A stretch of 64,000 bases of DNA from Tubiluchus corallicola (lineage: Eukaryota > Priapulida > Priapulimorpha > Priapulimorphida > Tubiluchidae). Of this stretch, positions 8,701 through 63,449 are shown piece by piece (position 1 is the first letter of the stretch; every line of letters begins with the position of its first letter). A program made the position numbers and the translations under genes. The notes beneath the pieces were generated by a model. The model saw nothing but the letters and a program-made list of their open reading frames with translations, did not search any database and was not told the DNA's origin. The stretch lies in contig JAQGDQ010000289.1 in assembly GCA_030141605.1 (NCBI GenBank), positions 127,001 through 191,000 of the forward strand, written 5' to 3'.

Positions 8701-9375
8701 AGTTCATAAGATTTATAGGTGATTTGAACAAACCTGCCCACGTTGGTCTTAATCTTTTCAAGAACTATTCTATCAAAGTACTAAATGATCTAATGAATTT
8801 GAATTTCCCCTATTTACATGTACAAAGCAGAACAATTCCCGTTTTCTTTTTATATTCAACAAGCTCTAACGAATTTCTTATTAAGTATTGCAGGACTGAT
8901 ACGGCAAGACACTTCATCACTAACACTGGCCCTAGACTTTGGAATAACATCAATGAATACATAAAAAAAAATATTATCTATAAATAACTTCAAAAGAAAT
9001 TTTCAATGTGAAATCTTCTCTATTTATATTGAATAAATCAATTGGACTAATTACGCTGCTAGCTCTGTCGGATTCCATCACGTTGCTGGCTATATCGATT
9101 TCTATAGTTCGCATTACTTCATATAGTTACCATTGCATCTTTCTCTATATTCTCCTTCGGCTTTTCTTTTCTACTTCCTTACACTCTGTTTTACTCTTCT
9201 CAATCCATATTCATTTGGGGTGCTCTCAACAAGTAATTACTTCATGAGTATCCCACGTGTCATTTAAGCTTGGCATCTTCGGTACATAATAAATATCTTA
9301 TTAAATTCTTTGGAAGCTGCTATGCTGTAATGATTGTTGTGGATGTATTTAATAAATAAATGAAATAATTAATGA
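5760..9375 (+). mobile_element. Decayed CR1/L2-like non-LTR retrotransposon
   Basis: Read in order on the plus strand: a WFYHVCLQNLL motif near 6175, as in the N-terminal zinc-finger part of CR1-group ORF2; an AP-endonuclease region (6340-7150) with NIHSL, IALSETWL and GSVYRPP; and a reverse transcriptase (7448-8350) with KGAGIDN, YRPISLLP, GFRKGSST, DFSKTFDTVNH and QGSILG. The catalytic FADDT lies in another frame near 8255. The C-terminal LGVTL and GPRLWNN motifs reach to about 8987. A tail with AATAAATAAATGAAAT ends near 9375. Several frameshifts, stops and an (AT)n run at 8180-8195 show it is dead. The 5' boundary is uncertain. Confidence 0.8.
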
Positions 9376-23400: not shown

Positions 23401-26400
23401 TACGTTTTTGGTTGGTATGATTTTATGTATAAAAGTGGGTATATTAGCTTTTGCGTGTGAATAATCAAGGCCAGAGTGCCTTGGTGGTTTTGTCAGTAGT
23501 GAGTGTAAGTACTACGCATTAATTGTTCATAATAATGTTTTGTTTCTTAAACAATTGGATCTTCGGTCTTCTATAACACTAGTTATGTGTAGTTAAAGAT
23601 ATTCAGAATGGCATAATTATCCTCGCCTCGTTTGGTACTGTAAAATAAGATTAGACAAGATTCAAGTTGCAAGTTTTTGATAACTCAGTTTAGTAAACGT
23701 TTATTTACCTCTTTCATAGAAGTTGAAGTTGTTTAGCATAACCGGTGTCTTATCGTTTGCCCCACAAGCACTCAGCTCACATGTTAAGCCATTAGTTCCG
23801 GATCCTACATTGAAGCCAACACAGAGAGAAGCTGACAAGGAACATAAGTAAGCACATCTCATATAACTTTGGACATCTAGTGTCTCCAAAGTGCAGTTCC
23901 TGATTACTTTGTTGGTTAGTTGTTTTTCATATTCAATGTAGACCTTTGAGTTGAATGGAGTTACCATGCAGGTCAAGTAACTCGCCACTATTATGCATAG
24001 TAAGTAACGGATTGCCATAATAATATTTTTCTGAAATGACCAAGAGAAATGTCACAAGCAAAAGGAATGTTCGTCTATAGATACATAAGCGAAGAGAGAG
24101 CAAGACTATGTTATAAAGACTGATGTAGCCAGCAGACTGATTGATTAGTGATGTGACAGTTTTGGACTTGTTGCCAGGCATTGAGACAATAGCTATTGTA
24201 GGTAATAAATGGTGTCAAGGTGTTTTGTATTATTAACAGTATCAAGGAGTCTATGGTCTTCGTCTCGTCGTACTGCATGAATTATGAATGACCATCATGC
24301 AAATGGGCTGAGCACATAAACAAACAAACAACTAAAATAGGCATTTCCAAACAAGTGTTGTGTACATTTTGACTAAGCGTATTTTTGGGACCATGGCTCA
24401 TGTAGTCCTTATGTTACAAGGTACAAAGTAGCTGGTTGCTAGTTAATTAAAGGTGGACGACCACCGATTTAATTATCTGTAGTTTTGATTCATAATTGTG
24501 AAAAATCTAAAGGCTTCGGCCTTCAAACATAGCTATACACAATCTTACACTTTATCACTGACAATTCAGTAGAATACACAGTCATAGATGATGATTGAAT
24601 GAATGATTCGTTCAAAGTAAGTGGTTGCTAGTTACGTGAAGATGGAAGACCACTGATTTAATTGTCTGTAAAGGAAATTTGATTCTTAATGACAAGAAAA
24701 GTGGTAATCACTAAAAAAATATATCATCATTAAACAACAAAAAGGCACAACGTTTCAAGCCGCTGCCGTGGTTTATCATCAGTGGAAAAAGGAAAAAGAA
24801 AAAATCACATGAAGATAATAAAACTACGTTTTTGTATTATACTACCACTTAAAAATTGGTTACAATCACATGTTAAAATCGTGGAGGCACAAATACAAGC
24901 ACAGCTAAAACACGGAAGCAGAAAACAGTATCACTGGTTACAACCAGTGTAATTGACGTCAAGCATGTTGGCCTATCGCTCATTCTCCGTTGTCATGTAA
25001 GGACTCTCTTGGGAAATCGGGACACTCAGCTTGCATTGAATAACAGCTCTCTTTAGTAAACAAACTGACAACTGGTAATTTAAAGTAACAACATGCAATT
25101 TAGTGTATATGCCATATCCTAAGCGTCTGGAGATTCTAAATCTAAAGTCTTTAGAAGAGAGATGCATTCAAAAAGATTTAGCTTTATGCTACCAAATTAT
25201 TCATAGAGAAGTTGATGCTGATTTTGACAATTTTTTTTACCCGTGTATCTTGCAATAGTGGTAGTGGTAGTGGTAGAAGTCGTAGTCGTAGTTATACTCG
25301 TACTCATACTCGTAGCTGTAGCAGCAGTAGACAATTTATTTTGACAATATTCAACATAAAATATTGCACATACAATGTGACAATTTGTCAAGGAGACTGT
25401 CACAAAAAACCTGTAAGGTTACAGACGTGGCAGCCACCGGAAGAACGGAATATTCTACGAGAGTTACAAGAGTGATACAACAGTTATCATTCCGAGAGTT
25501 ACAACTTACATTAATGTAGTTGGCATACATAGCAGTCAGGTAGATTACATGAGTCACTATAAGAAGAGTGATAATTGCTCTTTTAATTCTTTAACAATGC
25601 AGCTTAAGCTGTAATTCTTACTATTAAATAACTTAAATTTAATATTAACTGTGGAATTTAATGATTATATTAGGAACAGTGTATGTGAGAGACTGTTCAG
25701 CATATTTAAGTGTTTTACAATAATGCATCTGTAACTGTTGTCTTGTAGGATAGGAATGGACATTAAATTTATAAACCAGTGGCAAATTTTTATAATACAT
25801 TAGCAAAAACTCATTTACACATTTATATTAATATTTCACAATAGTAACAGAATATACATCTTTAATCTTTAGAATTTTTAATATTTTAAATATGGGATCT
25901 GTATGAGCATTGTATTTAGCACAAGTCATTACTCTTACAACTTTTTTGAGCAACTTTTCTATTCTATTACACTTCGATCCCCACACGAGTATCCATAGTT
26001 AATATGACAGCTAATAAGACAAGCATATATTTTCATTTTGGCCGAAAGTGGTAAGAAATGCTTTAGCCTATTAATTATTTCAAGGACATTACAAATCTTT
26101 TTATATAAGACATCTGTATGAGCAGAACACGGCAAATGTTCATCGATGACTATCCCCAGAAATTTAAACGATACAACACGTTCAATTGTTTAGTCATTAA
26201 ATTAGGTTAAGGCCCATTAATCAGTGTTTTGTCATGGGGCAACACATCACATCCTATCATAGACATGTTGTCATAAGGTTCACACTTCATTTGAACATGC
26301 TAATTCCATTTATTAGTTAAGACTGTAAAACTCGAAGTTTGTTACCAGAGCAAGTTTAAATTCTTTTTTCAAAATGTACAGAGATATAACAAAATTAGTG

Positions 26401-36200: not shown

Positions 36201-39200
36201 AATACATGTCAGAATTTAAGTTTGTAATTTTACATTGCTCAGCAGAAACTAAACATAGTTTTGAAATGCAATGTCATTTTAACAACAGCTTTGTAAGTGA
36301 TCTCACGAGTAAAGTCTGTCTGGGTAATCAAGTAATTTGTCTAATTTATGTTTTAAGAAGAAAGACCTAAAACCTCTCTTAAATGTAACCTGTAGTTATA
36401 AATGAAAAAAAATTAAGACTTCCCCGTATGTTACAAGCAGAAATACCAGTGGTTATGGTTCTGCAAAGAATTACAACTTACAATTGGTATTTATTTGTCA
36501 GGGCCAAAATTTAGACAAGAATCCCCGAATCCATTCATGTAAACATTCATGCCAATGCCCATTACCGCGAATCTGGTTAGATTCACACAGGTTTTACCTG
36601 AATGTTAAAAAATAAAAGAAATACTGGCACTAATGTGACTTTTTTGCTTTTTGCGTTACTTCACAAGTGGCTTTGGTGTATGGCGCTTTTCATTCAGAGT
36701 TGCATGTGAAAATTGTAGGGATCTATGCTCATTGCCAAACTAACAAGAATGTAAAATATAACAAAATTCTGGCCCTGTTTGTTGTAGGGAACTCACGCAT
36801 GCAGCTACATGGCTAAATCAGGATTAGGTACTACAAACCCCGGTTGGGTTACCACCGAGAACTGTAGGTAAGCTCAATGCCAATCATACCTGTTCCGTAT
36901 ACCTCTACACCAGAATGAAAAACGCCAAAGCCTAAATTTGAAGTGTACTCATTAATCCAGTACTGAAATAAAGAACAAAAATTACTCAGATAAAAGAAAA
37001 AAAAGCTATTAATTTAGAGTTAAAGTTTTTTAACACAACTTATCACAGCAGATGTGTCTCAAACCAATCATCTGTACAATTAGTAAATAAATTATTATAT
37101 AAATAAATACATAAATACATAATTATTAAATTACCATGAGCATTTATAAATAGAATGTAAAAGATGTGTTACAGGTAAGGTATAAAACTGGGTATTGCAT
37201 AGATTAGAATTACTGATGCATTGTAAGAGATCCAATAGGTCTATGTAGGCTCTTTGAGTTCGCCTTTCCAAATCATTTTCAGTTTTAGCTAATGCAGAAA
37301 TGTTTACAACAAAAATCTTTTCATATAAACCAATTTTTTGCCATTTGTGAAATTAGATGCTTTGAATGTGTTTGCAAGTGTGTGTGTGTATGTGTGTGTG
37401 TGTGTGTGTGTGTGCGTGCGTGCATGCGTGTGTGTATGGATTAATGTACGGCTAATCGCATTTTAAATGCAAACAATTTCAGATTTTGGTAAGATATATT
37501 TTCAGGATGTTGACTTACCAGCCAGGGGACCATATATAAGAATGTACATTTTTCAGGGTAAAGGAATGAAAGCTAAACGAGAAATTGAGCAATTCCCGAG
37601 AAAAACCTACTATTTTGTTATGTACAAAGCCTTCATAATTCACAGACAATGAATGGCATATGACTTGCAAGCTATATACCTATTTCTTAGGCTGTTTGCC
37701 TAAATGTGATTAACAGCTCTCCCTATAGTCTTAGTTGAGTTCTATTCATATCATACTTCCCCAAGGAAATGCAAAACCTGTGGGCTAGGGCTGGGACCAG
37801 TTAAGGATTCACTTAACCTGTTAATTTTTTATCAGTTAACTGTTAACTAATTAACTGATTAATCAGATCTAGGGAACATCGGAGGCCTGTTGTAATTTGC
37901 TGACTAGATCATTGGAGTACCAAATAAACAAAAAATTTACAACGCAAAAATATCAAATGAAACTTTAGAGGAATATGTTCAAATAAGAGTGAAACTTTTA
38001 TACATAGAAAGTGAAAAGTCTCTGTTTGTAAGGATTGATTTGATTCTATGTAGCAGCCCTGACAGTGATAGAGCATGTTAGAGGAATTATGTTAGAGGAG
38101 TAGAGTCCACCATGATAACGATCGGTTAACCACTTAAAAAATTTACCGGTTCTGGCAATGTTACCGGCAGAGTTCCATGCCAATGAAGACTCGAATCATT
38201 TAACATGTGGATGTGTACATATACAGCATGCATCATCAATTCGCTGAATCAGCGAGTTGATGTTAATTTGTTGATGGAGTTTCAAAATACCAAAGAACAC
38301 AGCCTACAAGACTTGAACAGCTTCACATAAACCATAATACATAGCGACCAGTATATATGTTACAACCAATGTGTGAAACCAGGGTATTCTATAGAATGCC
38401 TAGGCCTTTTATAGAGTGCCAATGTAAGCCAGGTAACGTGGCTAAAATAATTTATTCTATACTTTTCCTAGGCACTATATATAATGCAAAAGTTCCATTA
38501 GGCAAAGTGTGTAATTCTTTTATTTTGAATATACTTTTCCTAAGCGTTTTATAAACTGTTGAATAAATTTTAGGTAATATGAAAGTAAAACAAATGATTA
38601 ATTGTTTTGGTGAAATTTTACTAATCATTTTATATAATGCCAATTTTGTTCTGGAGAATGTGCAAAATAAGTGTTTCATGTTCTTACAAATTTGTGTGTT
38701 AGACCAGGTAACTAGCACTTCAGCCAAACATTCAGATTACATGACTGTTTCATTCATGTGCTGTTTGCATTTTTAGAAGTGATATACTTTTGGATTAGGT
38801 ACAAAGTGCATGATCCTTAAAGCTTGGTCATGTTGGTGCTGAGTGGTGCCGTTGTCACATTTATCTTTGAAAGCCATCGCAGGCCACAGTTTTCATGCAG
38901 GAAGCTGAGATTTTCCAAGAACGTGCTACGGAGCACTGCGCAAACCACGACAGAGCCTGGTCTTTCGCTTTCCCAATATGGCCTTCAAATATGCCCGTTA
39001 AATGGATCTGCCCTATACAATAAACTATTATATGGTTTGGGTTTCTTTCATTCTAATGTGTGAATGAATTTGCCCCAATGATGCACATTCTAAATTTTCA
39101 TGAAAAACGGATTCATGACAATAGTAAATACTTCCCACGAATTTCTTATGGAAGCCATTAACCGAGATAAAAGCATGTGCCAGAGGCAAGGACATTAGTA

Positions 39201-39744
39201 CTTCCATTCTTGTTGTGTTTCATACAGCATGATAGTAAAAACACTTAACTACTTGGTGCTTAAAATGAAAGAACGATTTCACACTAAATTAAAAAACAGA
39301 AGTCATTTAAAGCAGTGAGCGAGTGCTCTTTTGTTTTTCTAAGTGACAACAAACACCAGCAATTAATTAGGCTAATCATGTAAATGACTTTAACGTCAAG
39401 GCGAAAAAGCAGTCACCTCATTATTGCCTATGGTGCATGAGGTTATGGTTATCAAACAGCAATCATATAACACTTGTACAGAAGGAAATGCTGCTATAGA
39501 AAGAGAACTACTTAACATACTTTGTGATACAAATATGCTATGCAATATCCAACATTTAGTCTAAATTTCGACTACTGTATTATTGATTTGTTGCCATTCA
39601 ATTACATTGATCACAACAGACTTCTTCTTGTTCAAAAAGTGATTAGCGTGTGAGATAAATGTTACTGATACATACCATATCATAAATATTCAACAGCACC
39701 GGAGCCCTGGTCATGCCGTGGTTATTATTGCGACCGTGAACCAT
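33203..39744 (-). CDS. DESI2: DESI2-type PPPDE deSUMOylating isopeptidase, 5 coding exons
   Basis: Minus-strand exons in order: 39676-39744, 36890-36962, 35134-35227, 34160-34301, 33203-33358. They total 534 nt and 177 aa (human DESI2 has 194). All introns are GT-AG and phases agree. Motifs: [17 protein letters not shown] at the start, [13 protein letters not shown] with catalytic His39, [34 protein letters not shown] with catalytic Cys117, and a C-terminal [19 protein letters not shown] segment. The His-to-Cys spacing of 78 equals that recalled for human DESI2 (H30/C108). The family are papain-fold cysteine proteases acting on SUMO or ubiquitin conjugates. The start ATG at 39744 is the only one in frame near the conserved region. 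Some 5' UTR splicing (TTTTTAG before AGGTC) is possible. Confidence 0.93.
34387..34498. mobile_element. Short palindromic MITE-like element
   Basis: TGCCCAATTTCACAAAGC at the left end and GGCTTTGTGAAATGGCCC at the right end are imperfect inverted repeats bounding 112 bp. The interior is also partly complementary. The (G)GCCxxTTTCACAAAGC end is of a kind repeated in many invertebrate genomes. No transposase is present. It lies in DESI2 intron 3, just upstream of exon 4 in transcription order. Confidence 0.6.
37379..37437. repeat. (TG)n microsatellite
   Basis: An imperfect TG run with CG and CA interruptions, inside DESI2 intron 1. Confidence 0.95.
37785..38165. mobile_element. Possible hAT-like MITE remnant
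   Basis: The left part GGGCTGGGACCAGTTAAGG is followed by repeated TTAAC/GTTAA units. The right part, GGTTAACCACTT and then TTTACCGGTTCTGGC, is roughly its reverse complement. GGGCTGGGxC ends with internal TTAA palindromes are typical of hAT-derived repeats. Ends and target duplication are not clear. Confidence 0.3.
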
Positions 39745-46965: not shown

Positions 46966-48879
46966 ATGCCTCGCAATTTTCTAGTCAAAAGAAATTCTAA
47001 GATTCGTTCGTCGGTTGCTTACCGACCTGTTCGGCAGTCAGATAACGAAACGAGCGAAGAGACGTTGCAAATTTATGCGACGGACAAGAAGGAAAATAAA
47101 TCAGTTTTGTTACAAGACCACTACTCGGATTCGCTAGACGAAAAATTAGGAAACAGAGGTAGTTCAATTCATGCAGAAGAAACAAACATTGAAAACGGAA
47201 ATGGTTCATTCACATTGAAATGCGATGCAGACGTAAAGCAAAGTTTGCCTTTTAATAAGACGCCGCGGCAACTAGAACTGTTAAGCAGACATGGTAGTGT
47301 GAACGCCGATGGTAACGATGGCGATGATACTGATGATGGCACCGTATATGATAGAACTGGCAATTTTATTCCTCGGCACGTGAGCACCATGAACTGGACG
47401 AAGGCTTTGACAAAAGAGAACTGGCCCTCACCGAGGGATCTGGCAGCCGCGTACGAACTAGCCGCCGCAAATCTTCTACATGTACAAGAAGACAGAGGGA
47501 AGGAAGAAAGATGGTCTCCTGGCATATCAAAGGTTCATCCATGCAGTCCAGAAAGACGAGTCGCCTGGTCACCTGTGGATGGCCGCACTGTACATTTGTC
47601 ACCTAACACAAGCAGAAAATTGAGCAGCCCAATTCGCAAAAGCGAAACACCACAGAAGAGCCCAGTAAAGCTAAGTTTAGATCTGCCCAAAAAGACAACA
47701 AGTCCTATACGAGTTCCACTTTACCGAAATCCCGAAATGAACGACGGGGATTCGCGGTCACCTTCTAATCATTCAAACTCTCCTTTGCCTCTTTCTATTC
47801 ATCCATATTTTTTGACCGGTTCTCCATTGTATTACCTAAATGACTTTAACAAGCTGGCAGTCCATTCCCCAGGCAGTTCCACCTCTTCTGCACCTTCTGG
47901 AAGGGCTAGTCCAGCTTTGTCTTCACCATCTAAGAGACGCATAGGAAGCGGAGATGCCAACACTCCAAAAAAGTGTAAAGCTACCAGAAAGCTAACTTTT
48001 TGTAACGACAATTCTTCACCAGTCTCTGGCACATTTATCAAGCCAAAAGACGAACCAACTGCCACCAGATGCGTGGAGATGGATGACTCTGCCAGGATGG
48101 TGGATGTGACACCAGAAGCAAGAGCCGAACTGGAAAAGATCGAGAATAAAATTGGCGATTACATCTGTCAACTTTGCAAGGAGAAGTTTGCAGATGCTTT
48201 TCTGTTGGCACAGCACAGATGCTCGCGTATAGTCCACATGGAGTACAGGTGCCCGGAGTGCAGCAAAGTCTTCAACTGTCCAGCAAACTTGGCTTCTCAT
48301 CGACGATGGCACAAACCCAAGGAAGATCAAGATAGAGGTAACAACAACGGAATCCAGACACCCTTGGTAACGAATGTCAACAAGAACTATAAAGATGTAC
48401 ATCATCATTTTCCAGATGGAAATGAGAATTCTGATCCTTGCCCGGCTATTATTTCCATTCCCAACAGTGACGGTGAGTACTCGTGCGACTATTGCAAAAA
48501 GAAATTCAAGAGACACGGCTATCTTCGAAAACATATTTTGAGCCATCTGGACTCACACAAGGAGCTTCGGTGCAACTTATGTGGAAAAGATTTTTCACTG
48601 CTGGAGGAAAAGTTACACCACATTTCCGAATTTCATCCATCATCAAAGCAAGAACTGGAGCAGCGACAACTTCACCGTTGTACCCTGTGTGGACTTGGCT
48701 ACCCTACCAGATCAGAATTGGACAAGCACACAAGACAACATGACACCCAAGCGTTTCCTTGTAGGTACTGTAACAGTACATTCTTCACTGCTCCAGGTCT
48801 TACGCGACATATTAACAAGTGCCATCCAGTCGAGACACGTCAAATCCTTCTACTGCAGCTACCCGAATATCAGTCATAA
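46966..48879 (+). CDS. INSM1: INSM (insulinoma-associated) zinc-finger repressor, single exon
   Basis: A single open frame of 637 aa, intronless like vertebrate INSM1/INSM2. The N-terminus MPRNFLVKR is a SNAG motif, which in this family recruits LSD1/CoREST-type repressors. The middle (about 100-380) is low-complexity, rich in Ser, Pro and SP sites. The C-terminal part has zinc-finger modules: C401/C404/H417 (followed by C419 and H424), C429/C432/H445/H449, C507/C510/H523/H527, C536/C539/H552/H557, C572/C575/H588/H592 and C599/C602/H615/H620. The YRCPECSKVFNCPANLASHR segment and the terminal GLTRHINKCHP are INSM hallmarks. Known role: a nuclear repressor driving neuronal and neuroendocrine differentiation. 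It is ancestral to or co-orthologous with INSM1 and INSM2, so the symbol is a family name. Confidence 0.95.
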   Translation: MPRNFLVKRNSKIRSSVAYRPVRQSDNETSEETLQIYATDKKENKSVLLQDHYSDSLDEKLGNRGSSIHAEETNIENGNGSFTLKCDADVKQSLPFNKTPRQLELLSRHGSVNADGNDGDDTDDGTVYDRTGNFIPRHVSTMNWTKALTKENWPSPRDLAAAYELAAANLLHVQEDRGKEERWSPGISKVHPCSPERRVAWSPVDGRTVHLSPNTSRKLSSPIRKSETPQKSPVKLSLDLPKKTTSPIRVPLYRNPEMNDGDSRSPSNHSNSPLPLSIHPYFLTGSPLYYLNDFNKLAVHSPGSSTSSAPSGRASPALSSPSKRRIGSGDANTPKKCKATRKLTFCNDNSSPVSGTFIKPKDEPTATRCVEMDDSARMVDVTPEARAELEKIENKIGDYICQLCKEKFADAFLLAQHRCSRIVHMEYRCPECSKVFNCPANLASHRRWHKPKEDQDRGNNNGIQTPLVTNVNKNYKDVHHHFPDGNENSDPCPAIISIPNSDGEYSCDYCKKKFKRHGYLRKHILSHLDSHKELRCNLCGKDFSLLEEKLHHISEFHPSSKQELEQRQLHRCTLCGLGYPTRSELDKHTRQHDTQAFPCRYCNSTFFTAPGLTRHINKCHPVETRQILLLQLPEYQS

Positions 48880-50027
48880 GTAACCAGACTTCTGTCTAGA
48901 CATGGAGATCACGTTTGAGTAAGTCGGTCAATGTTGTATTGCCTATACGTGAATTTAAGCATTGTCAGAATATTTGTGATTTAAAAAACACTCTTTATAA
49001 GTGCATAGCACCGGCTATATTTTGATTAACTGTTAGCATTCTACCATTAAGACGTTTGCTATTGGCTATAAATCAAGAGTTCTTAGGCCTTAATAACAAT
49101 TGCACGTTTTCTTGAGAATATAAACTTGTTGAAAGCAAACCTGCCCCATATAAATATTTTTTTATTTCATATTGCTTGGTCAGTAGCTATTGAGATTAAT
49201 AATAATAATAATTTTTGATACAATAGAAAAGTTTTACAGTAAGATGAATATGTCTACATTTGCAGTATACATGTGAAGTGCCTGAATGAGCATGAACCGT
49301 CCCTTTTTTGGTACAATTGTTATCGCAGTCTGTACTGTATGCTCAAAGTAGAAAACTAATAGTGTACGTCACTTCGTGAAGTACCACTTCTGATGCGAAT
49401 CCCGATTTTTTTATAGAGCAATTCAACTTTCACACTTCATTCAAGTTATTCAGAAATTTTACATTTTTTTCAATTTGACAGTACGTAGCACAAGTTATGT
49501 TTGTAAGCGTTTTGTCAAGATATTTTTATATTGATTCCATACAAGCTGGACTTATTTGTAAAAAGTTGTTTTGTTGCTACTAAATTGTAATTGTAATTAT
49601 TATTGAATCACGTGCCGCTTGGTTCTGAAATTGAAAATTTAAGTTTTATTGAACTGAACGAATATAAATCATTCACACCTGAGTGGGAGCCACAATTTTT
49701 GCAAGAATCTTTCTTTTCACGCTGAAAGCGACTTAGCTTGGTTACTCTAACGGCTAAGCTATTAAGCCGGCTTGGAATCATAAATTTTCAAGAAATGGTA
49801 TACTCATGCTTCTTAGAATAGTGTGCCAGTAACTGCGAGTTTGGAGAATAAAATGTCCTGGTAACCGTGTTCAGTGTGAAAGAACGCATTAACAGGTTTC
49901 TGATTGTTTTAACTGTTTTCCTATTGCAAAAAACAGATAAAGTTTGTGAAAGTAAAAGGCGGCTAATTTCCCTCAAGAGATTGAGCTGACAGAAGCAAGT
50001 AAATAGCACCATGCCATTTTCTTTGTG

Positions 50028-50263
50028 TACAAACAGTTAAAATTATTTGAGCCTGTCGATCAATGCGACTTTCATTTTTCTTTTAAAATTCATTTCAGAG
50101 TTTACTTAGCAGTAAGATATGAAAAATTATTTTTACACACAACATACTTTTACAAACAATTAAAATTATTTAAGCCTGTCGATCAATGCGACTTTCATTT
50201 TTTTTAAAATTCATTTCAGAGTTTACTTAGCAGTAAGATATAAAAAATTATTTTTACACACAC
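50028..50263. repeat. Recent tandem duplication, 123-bp unit x 2
   Basis: Copy 1 (50028-50150) and copy 2 (50151 to about 50263) are nearly identical, starting TACAAACA(G/A)TTAAAATTAT and sharing GCCTGTCGATCAATGCGACT. Few differences imply a recent event. Confidence 0.9.
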
Positions 50264-51489
50264 CATTTGAAGTGTAGAATACAGGTATTATTCAACACAG
50301 CATTTTTTCATTTTGATTGGTGGTAAGTTTAGTATTTGAAGCTTTCGTGTTTTACTAGAGCTTCGTGATCAGTTACTCAAGCGAATGAGCAAATACTCGT
50401 CATGCGTTCTACTGTGCAATATAAGAATTATAGTAAATATACAGTTTTATTATACAAGTCGACTTGCGACATTTATTTACAAACTCTTTACATTTGATGT
50501 TTCTAGTCTCCGTTTATTATAAGCTGTGCACGTTTTTAGTAGAATTTTTGTAACTGTAAATTATTATTTTATATTATTTGCGTGTTTATATGTAAACCTG
50601 TTTAGAATAGTGTTGTGGTATGTGATATACCCATTATTTATTTACTTTTAAATTTATATTGTATAAATTTTTATGTTTATTCCTTAATTAAAAAAACATT
50701 ATTCTTATAAGTTGTGATGTAACATGCTATAGCGGATCATTTTTCTATATTATTAAGATTATTTTTTTCATTTTTAAACTCTTTCTATTATGTTTTTCAT
50801 GTTGATATTGTTGGTTCTTTGCTTTTAAAAATAAGTCTTGTTTATTTGTAGTTCATCTTTTCATATCTCGTAATTTTGAGCGCAATCACATATACTTAAA
50901 GTGCTGCTGCAAAACCAAAATTGGTGCTTTGAAAAGATGTTTTTTAAACTTAGGTCTACGTGCACTTTGTTTAGACTATTTGCCTTTATTGCTATGAACG
51001 TTGCTGGTTTTGTAAGTTTTTTATGCACAAATAAATCTATGTTTTATAATTTTCTTCTAAAGATTTGGAATTCGCGAATTTTTATTATCGTTTTGAATTT
51101 GTGAGACGTAAGAATCTGGCGTAAAAAGATGTACGTTACTGAAAAAGGAAACAAGAATAAAAAAATTGCGCTACTTCCGAATATGTGAATCTTGTAAACC
51201 TATGGTCGCATACATAGAGCCTAACCAAATCATCGAGAAGTAGTAAGCTCTACGGTCTACCAAGTGATGGAGAAAATTGTATTAAATCGCTGGGGAAAAG
51301 AGCGTAAAGGTGTTAGAGTGGCCGTTTTTAAGAGAAACGTTGTAGAGAAAATTCTATGTAAAATAATTAAAATATCATACAAATTCTTAGTAGCACAAAA
51401 CAATAAGCGGGGCAGAAGGCAAAGCAGTTACACCATACATCAGCATCTAATCGCCAGTCTGAACAAGCGTGGGTTCTGGTTTTCGTAAT

Positions 51490-51790
51490 TTACATACTTG
51501 GCCGTGTGAATGTTGCAGCGCGTCGCCACGTGCCCCTGTCTATTGTTGTTCCGATGGTCCCGGGCTAATTTCTAATCATTCAATAAACCGCAAGTATGCG
51601 ACAATGAAAAATGTCTTTGTTCCCAGTGCGTAGAGCCCAACGGTCCCGCTTAATGTGGGTCTACATTAGTAATGACTGCATGGCGGGGCTGATCGTCAAC
51701 GCGTCGGGCTTCTTTGAACCCTGGGAGGGCGGGGACACGATCTCGCGCGGCTGCCAAAAAGCGGGGTACACCAGAAGGAATCCTGCTTTC
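51490..51790. other. GC-rich patch of unknown nature
   Basis: About 300 bp are clearly richer in G and C and in CpG than everything around, with CGCGTCGCC, GGTCCCGGGC, CAACGCGTCGGGC and TCTCGCGCGGC. A plus-strand frame at 51611-51817 (68 aa, with NASGFFEPWEGGDTISRG) covers most of it, but I recognise no domain. It could be a CpG-island promoter, a transferred or assembly-foreign fragment, or an unknown repeat. Confidence 0.35.
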
Positions 51791-52714
51791 TTATTATGTA
51801 TTTTGTTCAAAACGTAATACTTACAGAAACAGTCAAAAACGTCTGACGTTTATCAATTTTATTTGTCGGCTGGGGTAGTTAGTTTCAGTTAAATTCACAA
51901 TAATGTATGCGCCCCTGAAATAACACAATGCGGCAGCTGCTGAATTTGAATATGCAAAGAGGCGAATGGCTGAGAAGGAAAGGCAAATAGAGGGGCAGGT
52001 GGGGGAGAATTGAAAACGCTATAGGTAGAATAACGGTACAGTTCAAGAACAAAAAGCAGCACGAAAAACAATGAAATCGAAGTGCTGATTTTAACCCAGT
52101 ACTTTTAAGTCTTCATTGTTGATTCACTGATGTGAATCAAATGATATACTGACCTGAGTGACCTCACAACTTTGTGCAGGCAAGGTGATTTGACTGCCAG
52201 GGGAACCCTCTCTGGCCCTTCCTGCTCAGACTACAGAAAACTTGGTAGAGCATGCCATGCAGTCACAAAAACACTGACTGCAAAGCACCGAAAAAATTGA
52301 CATTGTTATGGAAATCATGATACATGTCATGTGGCTAAAATGCTAAAAGTACTTCGCACATAGTATTATTGGTAGAAACCTAGAGTACAAAGCACAGAAT
52401 TTTTGTAGTTAATTAACCGTCTATTAAATAGATCGTTTGTAACTGATAGTTCAGTGGTCACGGTGTTCAACTTAACGACATTGGAACGGATACCTGCAGT
52501 TTATCTATGTAGGTTATCGTTTATCCTTTACGACAATTTAACTGTGCCAATCATAATTAGTACAACGTAAGTTTACTTACAATATTACAATTACAACAAT
52601 ATAATAAAGGGACCTTACATTAGTCTATAAAAATACTTACAGATAATCAACAGAACAACTTTGTAAAATCGTAGCTGCTAGTAAGCTTTAAATGTATTAA
52701 CATATATGTGGCGG

Positions 52715-52775
52715 GTTTCATAGCAGAGTGGTCTCGCAAACACCTTGTTGGTTTTGATACTCACTCTAAGTGGTC
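52715..52775 (+). repeat. tRNA-like SINE head
   Basis: A strong A box TAGCAGAGTGGT (52721-52732) is followed after about 17 bases by a weak B box GGTTTTGATAC (52750-52760). The rest of a tRNA fold is not formed, so this is a decayed tRNA-derived repeat. Confidence 0.4.
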
Positions 52776-54709
52776 TCATTCACCACACTGCAGTCAGTAT
52801 AGTTATTCAACTGCAATTTGTTCTTGAATTCCTCATCAGCTCACACCTCTCCAATTTTAGAAAACAGGTATCCATTGTAACAAATATTGTCTTGCAAAAT
52901 TTTTGTCAACTAACCGGAGTTGTGTGTGAAGGTTAAAGGCGACTTAATCAGGGAATTTTTGTCACACGGTAAATCATAAATTTGTCATCATCTGGGCAGC
53001 TTTTGTCGAGTGATTTTTTATGGCATTTTGGAAAGACGGTATGATAACTGGATCATAAACTAAGAGCGTGAAAAAACACCTTCACAGTTCACACTGTCGA
53101 TAAAAGCAGTGAACACTGCAGTCAACGAAAATACAAAGTTCTACACTTTATTGGCAGATGGCCTAACCTAAAAGCCTGGAAAATGTTAATTAAGAACAAC
53201 AAAGCTACTCAAGCGATAGTTATAGGTATTTATACAACTAACAGGTGTTCTTTCTTTTATGGCATAATTTATTTCAATAGCTGTTTAGACAGAAAAACAA
53301 TGTTTTCACCATAACTTACAGCAGCAGAAACTGGAAAAACAACAGGCATACTGATTAGCAAAGTTACAAGTTGATAACAATTATTAAATTATCACAGTGT
53401 AAGGTATAATGCCACTTCATAATGAAAAATTGATCATTTCTAAATGTAGATTACAATGCTCTAGAGAATTTTTGATGATTACAGCATTCTGGGTTTGTCT
53501 TTTCTTAACAGAATAGTATGTTTTACAGTAGTTTTATTACAATGTTATCTGTGGTTAATAATAATTAATATTAGAAGGTACAAATAAGTTACTGCTTATT
53601 TATTTATAACAATTACAAACCATACCTATTTACATTATTTCACCAACTGCTCATACAGTGTCCATCAAATTACATGTACAGTGTCTGTGAATAGGCCATT
53701 ATTTAATAAGACCACAACGTTAACATTTTTGTCAAAGCTAGAAAGGCAACTCCAACGATTTTTAATCACTCAACGACATTACACATAAACAATGTAATGA
53801 AACAAAATTGCAGCAGTAATGTACAAGCTTACAATCAGTATACAATCATACATACATGTAAGCAATTAAACAACGTTGGTTATCAGGAAAACATAGACAA
53901 ATGTAACAGCAGATTAATCATTTATATACAATGTAAGTTACCCTTACAATAATAAATAATCTATTTTTAATATAATGTTACTAATATTACGTATAGAGTA
54001 TAATGATAATAATACATAGCTGTAGATACCTAATTTTATTTGAGCTAATAGCACAAAATTATAAAGCACTCAAGTTTTTAGTTTGCTGATACCATGCCAA
54101 CTACAGAAAGAATAAAAAAGCTAAACATTTTTGCTCACTATTATCTGTAAATTACTTCCATACAATTACTTTGGTTAAAACCTTTTTTTCGTATTCATTG
54201 CAAAGATAAAATCTTGTAAAAGACACCATGTTGTTAATAAAAGGTCTTTTACTTTCACAGTGGTGTACACTAAATCTTATTATTAGATTCGAATAATTCG
54301 AGATGGCACCCATTTTATGTAAAAAATTATTGCAACTTGTCACTCAAGACTAGTTTTTTTACCCTAGCCCACCACCATTTATATTTAATATTATTGCATC
54401 AGGGTTGAAGGATGCAACATTTCACAGAAATTAATATTTCATATTTACTAGTTTTCACAGAAAGGCAAGGCAGTGAGTAACAAGACAAGTATACAAATGT
54501 TAATAATTTAATATATACATTATTCCCCTTGTAACTGATTATGTCGTAATATAAAATTAACATAAATTGTCGTAATTATGTTATAGCTATTATATATCGC
54601 TTGTGCATAATTTTTTTCACATTTTCTATTAGATTTCAGTTTGTTTCTATTAGCATCCCAGTTGCTTAAAACGTTAGCATAATTGATCTACTTTGCTCAA
54701 CCACTTGAT

Positions 54710-57700
54710 TTAGTTCCGACGTGGAGTGCACGGTGGTGTCGAATCTGACCTCATGCGTCCTTTCGTTCCAGCAGGCAGTTGCTTAATAAAGGCAGATACA
54801 GCACTATCTATATGAACTTCATCACCTACAATAGTATATTGAACAATTCTAGATCTAGTCAACTGAAATTCAACTAAAAATAGTAGTTATTCATTAAACA
54901 AGAGAAACACATTCACTTTGACATTGTCCTATGTTTGTACATTGATAGTGTTGATGTGTCTGAGCAATTCATCAGGTAACGAACAAAGCAGATTGCCGAT
55001 AACATAACTACTAAATTTACTACTTATATGCAACGAGATTCAGTCAAACAACAAATTTGTTCTAAAGTAATGCAGACATTTAGGCTGAAATCTCAAAGTG
55101 TTATGTAATTGATGGCATGTTCCACTATGAACAGATGCTCTATATTTAGTAAAATGCAGTGCGAGTTGTTTATATGCGGTGCCATATAAACCATCTTGAT
55201 CCAAATTATCTACTGCACAGATGATTGCAACTGCATCAGAAATTGCATGATGTGAATATAGGCAAACAAACTGCAATGCATGTTTACAAATTGTAACAAA
55301 ACCTACACAACATTACTAGTATATCTAGTCAATTCACACACGATTTACTGACAAGTTCTCTAATTAATCTAATCAAGCATAATTTACATTGTAAGCTTGC
55401 TAATCAAGCTGAATGTGCACATACTGTTAGCGAGGTAGGTTCACTATCCTACCTAGGTTATTCTGATCTCCTATCATACCGTACGTGATAGTCGGTTGAT
55501 GATGCAACGTCGGATGTGCAGATGAGGAAGCTGACGACTTGCTGCTAGGGGATGGGGATGAAGACGGTTTGCTGTCCAGCAGGGCGCTAGCTAGTGTCGA
55601 CACATCATGGCGGTCTACTGATGGCCCTGTAAATAAATATAATACGAACAAATTTAAAAAAGAAAACAAAGCACAATACTACAAAGCACAACACGCTCCA
55701 AGTGAAGTGCAACCATGTATCTCTATAGATCAATTTAATGCCAGACATAAGCTGTCAGGCTAATGGCAACAATATGCATAATCATTAGTACTCAAAATTA
55801 CAAATAGTTAATTTCATTTAATAGTAGCACCCGTCTTAGTGGAATTAGCATAATAATATCATCACCACACTTTAGGTTTCCCTGTCATATTTTTGCCAAT
55901 TATGGGATTTTCATGACTGTAAAACTAGAGAAACACACATCAAAAAATGTGGAATTTTACACACACATAGTGCTACATAATAATTAAAAAAATTTCATAA
56001 GGAGCTTACCAGCTTACCAGAGAATATAACAATAGAATTTACTGTGCATTCAATACAAAGAACCAAGCACAGAGGAGCAGCCAAGATGTGTACTGCAACA
56101 AGGGCAACACTTGGAAGGACCACTAAAACAGTACCAGCTTCATACTTTAGAACATATTGATTTGGTAATTGATTTATTGTATAACAGTAACTATGGTTAT
56201 GACACTTCAGCTATTTTTAGTCACATGGTTAATCAACTACTGGTACGTGCTACCAAGGATGTAGTATTTTGCATGAATAATAAAATGTGTGTGCAACATG
56301 AGGGTATCCATGGGATTACCTTTGAGATCTTTACTTGCCAATATTTTTCTGTCAAAACATATAGTCTCATTTCCACCAGTCCACATTGTCCTGTGCACTA
56401 CTATCATGTAGATAATACTTTGCTTGCAGTTCATTAAACAAGTCATGTGAGTCTGTTGTGTGGCTCAGGTAAAATACCTTTAATTTGAGCACTGCATATA
56501 AGCGTGCTGATTTGTTGTCAGCCATTAACAGGACTTGATCACACTGTTCTTCGTGGCATAAATTAGTGAAGGAGTTAGAGCTTGTTGAGAAATGGTGCAC
56601 CTATAATCATTATAATTGTGGTTGATTCTGATGATTACAATAATTTCATACTGTTTAAAATTCAGTGGCATGGCTATCATTATAAAATTTTGCACGTCGT
56701 TTATGTTAAGTGGTCAGTATTCTAAAAGTCGTTTTCACCAGCCTATAAACTGTGGCAGTTCGTCTTAGTTCCTAAAGTGCATGATGGCTTGTGACGACTT
56801 GGTAGGAAGGCACCTTTATAACTTGTATGGAAACTTTATTTAAAGAAAAATACTCACATCCGCTTTGAACTTGGCTTTGTGGCCGGCTAGATGGACTGTA
56901 TACCTTAGCAGTAAACTCCTCAAAGCTGGTCGGCTCTTTCAGTTTCTGTGCAATGTTATCAACATATTTTGCCCGCTCTTCATAGCTGCGAGATATTAGT
57001 CAAGGAATAATACCAAGTGTTTAAATGAATGCATCACATCAAACTAGACATTTCCTGTTTACTAAGACCATATTTTGGCATTGTTTGACTACTGTTTTTG
57101 CACACACTGAGAGTTTACATAGGGCTGCATTTCAACTGAAAATGAAAATATGTTTTAGTTGTAAGTTAGTAATAGTGATCAGCTGGCAATTGGCAGGGTA
57201 AGGGGAACAGGCAATTGACCGTGATCTGCTCTTGATTATGAAGTTAAAACTGCATCCAGCATATTAGTAAATGGATGGGTAACCACTGTGAAAACTGCAT
57301 CCAGTTGGGTGGACTTGCCATAGTGCACAGATTTTATGTATGACTTTTAGCTCAGGAGCAGGATGTGATATGGCAATCATACCTTGATAATGCTAGACAA
57401 AATTACTAACATGACAAATTATTATTAAACTACAGTCACCATTATTATTTTATGTGAATATCAAGATCGAACAAACAGACGCAACACAACTTTGTAAACA
57501 ACAAAGTTACTCACCCCTCACGCACCTGCCTTTTTATTAGCCCTGCTTTCTTTTCTAGTGCAATGACATGCCCGAGGCCAAGCTTAAATATTAATCACAT
57601 GCAAACATGCCATAGTACATAGAGGGATAGAGACCACTGTGCAGCCATCTGCTATGGTATTACAATGCATGCTATTTAAATGGCTTTCTCATCATTAATA

Positions 57701-60700
57701 ATGCAACATCAATTTTTGCCAAATCAAATAAAGGCAGGGAAAGGGTACAGGCACTTGGAGATATCAACATTTGGAATTTCCCTTGCTAGGCCACAATTAC
57801 ATTAAAAATAGCTTGAAACGTAATATTTTGCATAATTTAAACATACAACATGCAAAATAAATCTGAAACAATTTTAATAGAATTATGACTATCAAATAAA
57901 AACAAGATAAATAGAAACGGTTAATGATTTGATTCACATCAATAAGGACCAATTTTATCAACTTTGGACAATAACAAGTCTGCAATTATTATTTATGTAT
58001 TTTTTTTCTTTTTTGATATGCAATCAAATCAATTAAATGTATCACACCTTGGACAATAATTCAAACCATTTCTTCCAAGTGCAATTTTTCCAGGTCAATT
58101 AGGATGTTTTTTAATAGACTGTAACAGAGCGAGTCTAATTAACACATATGTGTACCATCACGGCAGCTGTGCCTAATAAATCAAGGAAAAAGCATTTTTA
58201 CATAATTAGACACATGCATGCATATTTAATGATGAGTGACTCATGCCTATAATTTCATCCCTAAAAAACTTCCCATGCCTATAAAGCACAATTTCAAAAC
58301 TGCTGCTAGCCAAATTTGAACTAGTGAATGCGGCTGGAAAACCGTTAGACAAAACTGGTTTAAAGTTAAAGGTGACCATGTTTTGATAGTAGCTGATAAG
58401 GTCGTTGACCTAATCAAACAAAGTAATCCAAGAAAAGTAGACTACTCACAACTACATCAATACCCTACCGCAATGTACCCCTGATGATGAGATTTTAATA
58501 TGTACTGCAAACAGCCAAATCAAACAATAGTAATAATTAATAAAAAGCCCACAATGACCAATAAACATGCAAAAGGAAGAAAACAAAAATGCACAAAAGA
58601 TCAGAGATTTTTTCTGAATTTTATGACACTACCTAATATTATTACTGCATGTTATTATTATTATATCTATTATTATTAGTTATATTTTGTTTGACTCTTT
58701 TCTGTGCTTTGCATTGTGTCCTTAATATTTTTTGTGAATGTTTTAGAGACATTTTGTGCATTTTGTTTTTTCTTGTGTTTTTTTAGTGCTTTAGTGCTTA
58801 ATTAGTAGCTGAAATGTTATTATTATAAAACAAAAAAAATCTCATTTTTTTCCTCGAAATGAAAACAGTTCACAGTTTTCAAATATTATTTACAAGATTT
58901 TTAATAAATAATATTGAATTATGTCATGAAGACACCATATATGCAAACTGTTTGAACTGCTTCTACACTGTTTGCATCAAGGTGAAAATTGTACTAACTA
59001 ATTAAACAAAGTGTGGCATTCATCATGCTAATTACCATACAGATGGTTAAACTGTTGATAAAAAGAAGTGTCAATAAAAAAATTCCCATGCTCAATGAAT
59101 AAACAAAAAACCATCTGTTGGTTGCGGGTTGATAGGTGACAGCAGTGATAATGTATGGTAATAGTATAACAGGTAAATTCTGCATATTCATCATCATTAA
59201 CTGTCAAAATTTGTTAAAATGCCTTTTGAATCTCAATTAAGTGACTGGTAGCGATATTACAAAGTAAAATTTTAAACTGCAGACCACTGATGATTTAATT
59301 CTCAAGTCTACAACATTTCACATTAGCTAACACTAAACGCTGTAAAGGTATAAATGTTATGATAATTTTTTAGATACTGTTAATAGAGATACGTTTAAGA
59401 AAATTAGTAGCTAACAATTTTCAAGTAGTGTATTTGTAAGGTATTTGAAACTGCTGCACGTGTAGTTCAACATATTAATAAGCACATGACTAAAATATAC
59501 ACAATTGTCAGTCACTTTAAGGTTCTGGTAAATTCCAGTGATCAGCAAAAATAATTTTAAACTGTTAGTTATTTCTACATTTTACATGATCTAGAAAGCA
59601 GTAGAAAAAAGTGAGCATGAGCTGAAAGCAAATTTTTAGGTATCACTTAAAAAACTATAGCTAAATGTGTTTATTAGTTAAGCAGCCAAGTTGTCATAAA
59701 AATCAAAATATTTAGCAAAAAGGGGACCCATCACAAGCATAAGAAATAGAGATAGATATCATCTTTATTTACCATATATTTACGTCATGTATGATACAAA
59801 AACGACAGATAATATGGCAGTTATTTTCAGAAGAAAAATAATGTTGTTGGTAATAGCATTATTTATAAATTAAAAAAAAACTACCTCTGGCAAAAAACGA
59901 AAACGGAAGCACAGATCACAAGACAGATAAATAAAAATAAATAAACTAAAGCAAATACATACATAATAAATCAAAACAAACATCAGGCACTAGAAGGTTT
60001 ACCTCAGAATTGGATGGCGACTGCGGAAAACTCTGTAGGCTATATCTGCATTAACAGACCAAAAATAAAGGCTGTCTAAGATATTCTATGATCAATTAAC
60101 AGGTACGTTTATTAGTTTAGTAAAACCACTGGAGATGCACTTGTTTTAATAAACAAAGAATGCCTCATTAGAGTGCCATACGGATTGAATGGAACGCGAG
60201 AGCTGTAAACCCTATCAGAGAATTATAAGCGACAAAAATATTCATGCGTCGTGCACTTTATAGTTTGCACTTATTTACTTTTTGCAAACATCCAGGTGGT
60301 GCCTGCCTAACACAATGAAGCAATTAGAAACTGATAGCAACATATGCCACGTCAACATCTCACATGTCAGAACACCGCCACCACTTTGATCACGGCAAAA
60401 GAATTGCAATTAAAATATGATAGCTTTGCAAGCGGCACGCGACTCCCACTGTTTCGGATTCTACTAATAATTAAGACAAACAATGAAGCTAGTTATTGTC
60501 TAACTTGCAAGTTTTTGAGCATCATGTTACTAGTTTAATGATACCGAAGATGGAGAAATTTAATATACGTATGCGGAGATGATAGCGCCTCGAAGAATAA
60601 AGTGATGAAAATGTCATCTCATTTCGTGTATTTTATCATAAATATGAACTAAAGATGAAGAACGTTCCACATGTATTTCAACTGATGAGCGATGACCTAT

Positions 60701-63449
60701 AATTTACAGAAGATAAGATAATCCAGGAGAAAATAATTTCTTATCACTTTCTTTCCATGCTTGTTGTTGAAATTTAAACACTAATGCTTTGTTTCGTAAT
60801 AGAAGTACACAATTAAGAACTTCAGCTTAAGATAATTAATAATAGATTATTTCTAAAATGTTAAAAAATTTAATTAGTCACCCAAAGTAGTAAAGATTTA
60901 AATAAAAAAGAGTAACAAAAAGGCTCAAGGAAAATGGCTTAACTGGAATTAGGAAAGATGATCTCAAGTAGAAATAAGTTTTCAACAGATTTTTATGCTG
61001 TTTCAGTAAATTCGAAAAGTAATTATACTTTGAGTAATAAAACCATTTAATTAAGAAAGTTTAATTACTCTTACCATGACTGATTATAAATTATTTGTTT
61101 AAAAAAAATTGTTGAATATTTAGCAGAAATGCCTGAGTAGAAATGCTATGTCGATGGCATTTTCCTAACTGCCTTTCCATTGATAATTGTTATTTTCATC
61201 AATAAAAATAAAAATACCTATACCTACACAAAGCAAAACAACAAAGGTAAGAATTAAAAACACGAACGATTCCAACAAAAAAGAGCAATGATGAACAGCA
61301 ATGTTTATGAAATTTTAAACACATCAACATGCATATTAACTCAAACATATTGAATTATAAAACAAAGTAGAAAAAGGATACAATGTTTGGTACAGTGGAA
61401 TAATGGAGCGTTTAACTCTACTGGCATTAATGGCTGTTGCACGAACTAAGCCTGGCAGAACCTTTGCATCAACAATGGCACCATCAAATAACGGTCCAAA
61501 ATACGGAATCTGAAATTGAGTTAAGTTGTCAAAAGTTGGCCTCAATCATTATGTGGCATCACACTCTGTGAAATTACATACTTTCCAAAACTTTAAGTAT
61601 GGTAACCATAACTTGAGTACTATACAAAGAACAGAATTATTTTTTTGCAAACTGAACTGTGCAAAATTAACAAGAGATTCAAGAGTTTTACTGTCTAATT
61701 TTATTTAACATCTAAGCTGAATATCACATTAGATAAGTTTACTCGCTAGTTAAACAAATTTTTTATCAAACCTGTAGTAAATGCCTTACCTCTTGTTTTT
61801 TACAAATTTGTATGCGATACAGCAAATTTGGCAGCGGATAGATGACAATCATAACATCACCAAATTCAGTCGCGATGATTCCGCGCCGGTAGTCACGTGA
61901 ATGTTCCGACCAAACTATGTGAACTTCATCGTTACCTAGATGCCTCAACTATGAAACAAGAATATCTGTATATATCTGTGTATCTGTATCACATTCATAA
62001 CAAAACATGAATGCTACACCAATAGCTTACAAGTAGCAATGAAGAATTGCTTAAAGGAAACTTGCAAGTTTCTCGGTTACATGAACTTTTATGTTTGAGA
62101 ACAAAGTTAGAAACTTCAGCAATACAATTGTGATAAGTGTCTGACATACTTAACTAAATCAATTTAAAGACATGGTCAACCATTTCACAATTAGGCTATT
62201 ACTGTCGACTAGGAACATTTAAATCAAATCGTTAAACAACAGAATATTATTATTTTGTTTGTTTTTTGACGAAAGTCCAGCTATAAACAGTCGTATCTAT
62301 TTAACATACAGATGGTTGCTGGTGGAAGCAGAACCCATATCAGTATCAAGAATAACCCTTTAAAGGACAAGAAATGTGTACCTGGACTAAGATTCAGAAA
62401 AATGGCCTTAAAAAATTATATTATTTTATAGCAATTTTACGCGTATATTGTACTCGCATTGAAAGGATTTTTTGTTTGTTTTCATTTCAAATTGCCTGCA
62501 ATCTCCCGAATGTGCCATTACATATGTCATGTATGCACAACATAAATTGGGAAGAAAAGGAAATGTTAAACTATGTCCCAAAAAACTTTCCATTTATATT
62601 AATTTAGCATTTCGCTTCACTGCCTGAAAAACTTAGATAACTGCAAGAGGAAATTACCAATTATTTAAAATGTTTTCACCTATTGGTAAAATGTCATTGA
62701 CTCATCTCTAGGGTGCACCACTCACTAACCAAAAAATGTATTTTCCATTTTATTGACAAAATACAGTAATTTTAAATTTTACTTAGTTAGTGATATGTGT
62801 CTGCTACGAATGCTCAGATTATTTTTTCAAACTTCATCAGTGTTGTCTAAACTTGTTTCAAATGACCTATCGTCAAAATGGCTGCGTCTAACGGTCATCG
62901 AGTTTAAATTTACAGGTTTTATAATGCATCACTGTTGATGCAAGCCCATATGCAAAAACGCGGTATGTATATGGTATAAAATTTCAAGACAAATTTTTTA
63001 GGCTTTGCGTAAGTGGAGAGTTTTCTTGTGTTTTAAGATAAAATGCTGAACCGAGAGCAGATGCTCTCATGCAGAGAGCACATATGCGTCTTCCCGCAAA
63101 GAAATAAATAACTCAAAGCAGCACTGCAGATAGAACCCCTCAAGAGCAGTTCTTGCCATTTCCTGATCACCTTGCCATTTACTGATCACTATCAGTGTTG
63201 CTTAACTTTGCAGTGTGCAAGTAGGAAAATGTTGCAACCATTTAATTGTCTCCGTTGGCACACTCTTGAAAAAGAATGCGGAAATTTGGTTACCTTTACA
63301 TGCCGATGTTCATCAGTATTGGACGGAAAGCGAGTTGAGACATGAAATATCACTTCAACAGTAGATGTAGCATAATACGGAGCAGTATCACCTGTGGTCT
63401 TATTAGTTTGCAGCCCACCCATAAAACCCGGATGGGTTCCAAGATCAAC
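54710..63449 (-). CDS. RALGAPA1: Ral GTPase-activating protein catalytic alpha subunit, C-terminal six exons (partial)
   Basis: Minus-strand exons in order: 63294-63449, 61790-61948, 61382-61509, 56858-56985, 55480-55626, 54710-54825 (stop TAA). They total 834 nt and code for the last 277 aa; the 5' part lies beyond the right edge. The Rap/Ran-GAP-like catalytic domain is seen from [19 protein letters not shown] and [15 protein letters not shown] through [16 protein letters not shown] and DYRRGII, then [29 protein letters not shown] and [16 protein letters not shown]. The Asn in HLGND corresponds to the family's catalytic asparagine thumb. With the beta subunit it turns off RalA/RalB. After the GAP domain comes a Ser-rich linker ([19 protein letters not shown]) and a basic end. 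It may be co-orthologous to RALGAPA1 and RALGAPA2. Confidence 0.93.
55795..56857. other. RALGAPA intron with unexplained open frames
   Basis: Frames are open on both strands at 56111-56437 (plus) and 56237-56600 (minus, two overlapping frames). The minus frames together (with [19 protein letters not shown] and [13 protein letters not shown]) look more protein-like than the plus one and may be a decayed mobile element, but no family is recognised. Confidence 0.3.
56986..61381. other. RALGAPA large intron
   Basis: 4.4 kb of AT-rich sequence. No exon is required, because the flanking exons join in frame to give YQTFYEERAKY. No transposon could be identified. As the largest intron near INSM, it is a plausible place for enhancers, but nothing in the sequence proves it. 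Confidence 0.45.
61949..63293. other. RALGAPA intron between the first two visible GAP exons
   Basis: No other exon is needed: both flanking exons are phase 0 and the join gives RHVK followed by LRHLGND. No element is recognised. Confidence 0.4.

Follow-up and report, generated by a model that had tools for sequence, protein, structure and literature searches.

The genes INSM and RALGAPA were found to be tail-to-tail neighbours in the priapulid Tubiluchus corallicola, in a stretch of 64,000 nucleotides (hereafter the window; contig JAQGDQ010000289.1, C1360 in our numbering, positions 127001-191000) taken from an assembly of 343.5 Mb in 2,344 contigs (GCA_030141605.1). The adjacency in this genome is real, and orthologues of the two unrelated genes thus stand side by side both here, according to the sequence, and in human, according to published gene orders. 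As both human duplicates, INSM1/RALGAPA2 and INSM2/RALGAPA1, are neighbours, the microsynteny was most likely present in the ancestor of bilaterians, before protostomes and deuterostomes split. The best single explanation of this arrangement, ahead of inertia, is a genomic regulatory block whose target is INSM and whose bystander is RALGAPA, and we favour it with somewhat more confidence than doubt. Coordinates given below are those of the window unless a contig is named.

The coding sequence of INSM (46966-48879, plus strand) is one uninterrupted frame of 637 codons, in agreement with the intronless plus-strand gene described in the first-pass annotation. Its product of 637 aa begins with MPRNFLVKR, which we take to be a SNAG-like start, and five zf-C2H2 stretches were detected in it by a domain scan. 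The top three matches in PDB are all named INSM1 (3zms, E 1.9e-56; 8jpy, E 1e-28; 2lv2, E 7e-16). Searching the genome with this protein revealed one identical copy, which is the gene in the window, and one relative (44%) at C2043:453608-455068, whose frame is intact and which retains the SNAG-like start and the finger region. The remaining matches were weaker and were aligned mostly over the zinc-finger region. When both INSM loci were compared with each other, 32 alignments were obtained; among the best 25 of them, only one falls at INSM (~48100-48317) and is coding, and many of the others fall on the same few places in a repeat-like manner. An open frame of 3,945 aa with C2H2 fingers was also observed at five places (C45, C2048, C2100, C2197 and C2212) with identical match scores; it is perhaps a mobile element or a duplicated segment.

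The 3′ part of RALGAPA lies on the minus strand and was assembled from six exons, which splice to one frame of 852 nt with a stop at its end; all five introns between them are flanked by GT and AG. Exons a (63294-63449, containing the Rap/ran-GAP domain), b (61790-61948), c (61382-61509) and d (56858-56985) were assigned by PDB matches and splice joins. Exons e (55453-55617) and f (54710-54825, the stop-terminated last exon) are predictions from open frame and splice sites, which lie outside the matched part of the PDB entry 9qwp and whose acceptors were picked so that the frame stays open. The best PDB match of the product is RalGAP alpha-2 (9qwp, E 7.5e-68, 231 bits). TSC2 (tuberin), which scored 27 bits (E 2e-5), was ruled out on this comparison. 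Six of the seven matches in a genome search are the gene's own exons on C1360 and the seventh is a partial match (38%, E 2.5e-6) on C859. RALGAPA seems to run on to about 83-87 kb in window-equivalent coordinates, as judged by eye from open reading frames (ORFs). The minus-strand position of the RALGAPA end noticed in the first-pass annotation is upheld, with the end itself corrected to near 54710. The large introns mentioned there were not confirmed, as the five that were measured have lengths of 280, 627, 1,240, 1,345 and 4,396 bp and are not notably large. The largest one (56986-61381) is the first candidate place for INSM enhancers. The intron between exons b and a houses a dispersed repeat of ~680 bp (62359-63041), of which at least 39 other near-full-length copies with 80-82% identity occur in the genome among the 40 of 5,668 candidates that were scored (DNA search with 55618-63293 as the query).

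With INSM on the plus strand and RALGAPA on the minus strand, 5,830 bp separate the two stop codons (48880-54709), or ~6,550 bp if the donor of exon e is unused, since the frame of this exon would then stop at 55427. No coding exon was recognised in the ORF list of this space, which was read by eye and not compared with any library; this is in line with the earlier remark that nothing coding lies between the genes. The whole window is free of N. No second copy of the 5,830-bp space was found in the genome by a DNA search that skipped simple repeats and very common words. The space may be considered candidate regulatory DNA together with both 3′ untranslated regions (UTRs), and its freedom from dispersed repeats is weak evidence compatible with constraint. 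The flank upstream of INSM contains repeats at ~37787-38151 and 38354-39608 (39 of 1,290 candidates scored), as found in a search that was not exhaustive, its own self-match being missing among the matches listed. The hexamers AATAAA or ATTAAA, which are frequent by chance in AT-rich DNA, appear first at ~1.0 kb past the INSM stop and 0.2 kb past the RALGAPA stop. A tandem duplication of 121 bp with 94% matches was observed within the space at 50028-50266.

The statement of the first-pass annotation that human INSM1 sits beside RALGAPA2 and INSM2 beside RALGAPA1 is supported by published deletion reports. The shared 20p11.2 deletion comprises INSM1, RALGAPA2, KIZ, XRN2, NKX2-4, NKX2-2 and PAX1; one of its edges cuts CFAP61, and FOXA2 lies past the other (PMC11220097). 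The order reported for a 14q13 deletion, in a list of OMIM genes between which unlisted ones may intervene, includes NFKBIA, INSM2, RALGAPA1, PTCSC3, MBIP, SFTA3, NKX2-1, NKX2-8, PAX9, SLC25A21, MIPOL1 and FOXA1 (PMC6924084), and another gene list likewise closes with NFKBIA, INSM2 and RALGAPA1 (PMC7336736). RALGAPA is one of the gene families assigned to a paralogon of human chromosomes 14 and 20 that was duplicated in early vertebrates (PMC3560075); the string 'insm' has no occurrence in the main text of that paper.

The same tail-to-tail order had also been claimed for both human pairs. In the case of INSM1/RALGAPA2, we presume this order. In the case of INSM2/RALGAPA1, the ultraconserved element uc.372 (277 nt) is intronic to RALGAPA1 and located 1,400 bp downstream of INSM2, which means that INSM2 has its 3′ side towards RALGAPA1 (PMC5807361). 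Silencing of INSM2 was reported to lower the level of uc.372 and silencing of RALGAPA1 was not (PMC5807361). Both the position of uc.372 and its INSM2-linked level are what a regulatory block would predict. The enhancer-based constraint proposed in the first-pass annotation is thus strengthened, for vertebrates only.

INSM is a zinc-finger protein of a family of regulators of nerve and endocrine (neurogenic and neuroendocrine) cells, and is thus a developmental regulator of the kind expected as the target of such a block. RALGAPA, a Ral GTPase-activating subunit, is functionally unrelated to it and would be the bystander. According to the mechanism that we propose, the bilaterian ancestor would already have had INSM and RALGAPA as tail-to-tail neighbours, and cis-regulatory elements of INSM would lie within the shared intergenic space, the 3′ introns of RALGAPA or both, the places where we would look for them in this animal. 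Breaks between the two genes would then be selected against and the arrangement would be kept. In human, uc.372 may act as an enhancer of INSM2. A broader version, in which INSM-RALGAPA would be a pan-bilaterian regulatory block with uc.372, primarily an INSM2 enhancer, in its vertebrate core, and in which functional counterparts of no recognisable sequence similarity would reside in the 5.8-kb space of T. corallicola or the 3′ introns of its RALGAPA, is more speculative and we advance it only tentatively, with doubt outweighing confidence. If these suggestions are true, INSM joins the developmental genes whose enhancers have pinned an unrelated neighbour for more than half a billion years, and uc.372, discussed in the literature cited here as a non-coding RNA of liver lipid metabolism, gains a testable reading within the regulatory landscape of INSM2.

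The genes recognised on C1360 (295,519 bp, bases 60001-65000 of which read N) are, in order, MEIS, a BTB gene, two hemerythrin-like genes, AREL1, a TBCE-like gene, INSM, RALGAPA, NPC2 and striatin. They were picked by eye from filtered ORF lists, so unrecognised genes may intervene. Five neighbour pairs could be used as a control (AREL1-TBCE, TBCE-INSM, INSM-RALGAPA, RALGAPA-NPC2 and NPC2-striatin), and only one of them, INSM-RALGAPA, is adjacent in human; the human neighbours of INSM and RALGAPA were taken from papers, and the other human positions are general background. The hemerythrin pairs (no nameable human counterpart), MEIS-BTB (the BTB orthologue could not be named) and a nested lectin were omitted. 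AREL1, NPC2, STRN3, INSM2 and RALGAPA1 are all on human chromosome 14. Because only one of the five pairs is adjacent and several of the genes share this chromosome, C1360 has the appearance of a fragment from an old linkage group in which the gene order was reshuffled around one persisting pair.

Some of these gene assignments need a comment. The TBCE-like gene contains CAP-Gly and leucine-rich repeat regions below the Pfam cut-offs, and all four PDB matches listed for it are named TBCE (E 0.09-0.99). Inside this gene, on the minus strand, an ORF with a C-type lectin domain and an adjoining PAN-like ORF, the latter recognised by eye, were observed at 22808-24051. The two hemerythrin-like exons, at ~79.7 kb and 87.0 kb of C1360, were found with NCBIfam below the curated cut-off, and the one that was tried against Pfam gave no match at E 0.05. 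The first exon of the AREL1 filamin region had no meaningful match in PDB. Endonuclease-like and reverse-transcriptase-like ORFs, identified by eye at 6332-8984, are probably a degraded long interspersed nuclear element (LINE).

Several observations weigh against a regulatory block. The authors who described uc.372 considered it to be a long non-coding RNA of liver lipid metabolism and not an enhancer (PMC5807361). Two 21-mers of uc.372 given in that paper had no match each in the window with up to 3 mismatches allowed (0.01 expected by chance); a loss of sequence likeness is expected over such an evolutionary distance. The RALGAPA introns are modest in size and one of them carries a dispersed repeat, and any enhancer or conserved non-coding element in this genome is a candidate only, so that the enhancer part of the earlier proposal did not gain support from T. 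corallicola itself. The RALGAPA exon query found no match on C2043, the contig of the second INSM gene, which shows that INSM need not adjoin RALGAPA. The XRN2-NKX2-1 adjacency, another ancient pair, was not seen in this genome, the matches of its two members being on different contigs. Finally, the neighbour-pair control is small (n = 5) and its TBCE member is weakly identified.

The main rival to the regulatory block is inertia, by which an ancestral pair would have survived, without selection, through few breaks on a slowly shuffling ancestral chromosome. In keeping with this explanation, the genes shared with human chromosome 14 suggest that C1360 may derive from a single ancestral linkage group. 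Moreover, functional constraint and low recombination were left undecided as the general cause of microsynteny in PMC8851819. Against inertia, four of the five testable pairs on C1360 are non-adjacent in human, so the local order was shuffled around INSM-RALGAPA; in addition, both vertebrate duplicates retained the pair, and uc.372 is suitably placed (PMC5807361). We consider inertia rather unlikely. Coupling of the gene tails, in which the pair would be held not by enhancers but by transcription of a convergent kind, by 3′ UTRs that overlap or by a common termination or insulation, is in harmony with the tail-to-tail orientation seen here and with the 3′ side of INSM2 facing RALGAPA1. The ~5.8 kb between the stops and the early hexamers argue against it, since with hexamers at ~1.0 kb and 0.2 kb past the respective stops the UTRs need not meet, and we regard such coupling as improbable.

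It is still less probable that the pair is a relic of a larger ancient block with XRN2-NKX2 and the pharyngeal cluster, and that the constraint stems from that block. Both human pairs do lie within regions of NKX2, PAX1/9 and FOXA genes (PMC11220097; PMC6924084), and xrn2 and nkx2.1 were adjacent in all six spiralians analysed in PMC11175523. However, an XRN_N search gave matches on C454 and C1646 and none on C1360, and a search for NK-type homeoboxes gave NKX2-1-like matches on C1188, C205/C528, C474 and C2085 and again none on C1360; homeodomains split by introns can escape this search, as the MEIS gene of C1360 did, and the searches covered neither PAX nor FOXA. Neither 'insm' nor 'ralgap' occurs in the main text of PMC11175523. 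A linkage of C1360 to the NKX2/XRN2 block was rejected on the lack of a match for the searched genes. Least probable of all, and hardly credible in our opinion, is a coincidence or an assembly join. The pair was seen in one invertebrate only, which would leave room for such an accident, and yet the window contains no N and the intergenic stretch was fully matched at a single place of the genome, and an assembly join or coincidence was rejected on these two observations. Two given genes would be expected to become tail-to-tail 3′ neighbours by chance with a probability of ~2.5e-5 among 20,000 genes or 6e-4 within one linkage group of 800 genes, figures that come from simple arithmetic with assumed gene numbers.

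Hox genes are also present in this genome according to a homeodomain search and the translation of eight loci. Three of these loci, located on C1217, are presumably, in order, Scr, a Lox5-like gene and Antp. One further locus encodes a UbdA-like tail (KKENQALKEMKEQ), three other loci would be Dfd/Hox4, Hox3 and Hox2, and the eighth was not given a label. Taken by themselves, these labels would point to a protostome, probably of the spiralian branch, and the two hemerythrin-like exons of C1360 are compatible with this but no proof of it. A search for COX1 gave no match, perhaps because mitochondrial DNA is missing from the assembly.

The regulatory block proposed for INSM and RALGAPA can be compared with several known systems. 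No discussion of an invertebrate INSM-RALGAPA pair was found in the literature passages, supplementary tables aside; we do not claim that it is absent from print, and the pair is possibly already catalogued among the published microsyntenic pairs. One counterpart is the human INSM2-RALGAPA1 pair, which consists of the same genes, with INSM2 again turning its 3′ side to RALGAPA1, and has a conserved non-coding element in a RALGAPA1 intron close to the 3′ end of INSM2 (PMC5807361); that element is treated there as a non-coding RNA, and the two 21-mers from it were unmatched in the window. The xrn2-nkx2.1 pair is similar in being an ancient pair of the same human chromosome regions (PMC11175523; PMC11220097), whereas neither of its genes was matched on C1360. 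In the wnt7-atxn10 block, the introns of the bystander atxn10 are said to house elements that regulate the developmental gene next to it, as we suggest for RALGAPA; the genes are different, and that proposal was offered as a hypothesis consistent with gene-density data (PMC8851819).

The pair ISL-SCAPER, for which enhancer-like elements were reported in the SCAPER introns of a sponge (PMC5429095), differs from INSM-RALGAPA in these elements, none being known for RALGAPA here. Its two members are on one contig in T. corallicola as well (C1023:142376-262805), where an islet homeobox (98%, plus strand) and a SCAPER N-terminal domain (minus strand) were matched ~119 kb apart, and they are probably also oriented tail-to-tail. 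ISL-SCAPER is analogous to INSM-RALGAPA in that a developmental transcription factor stands beside an unrelated intron-bearing gene and that this arrangement was kept across phyla.

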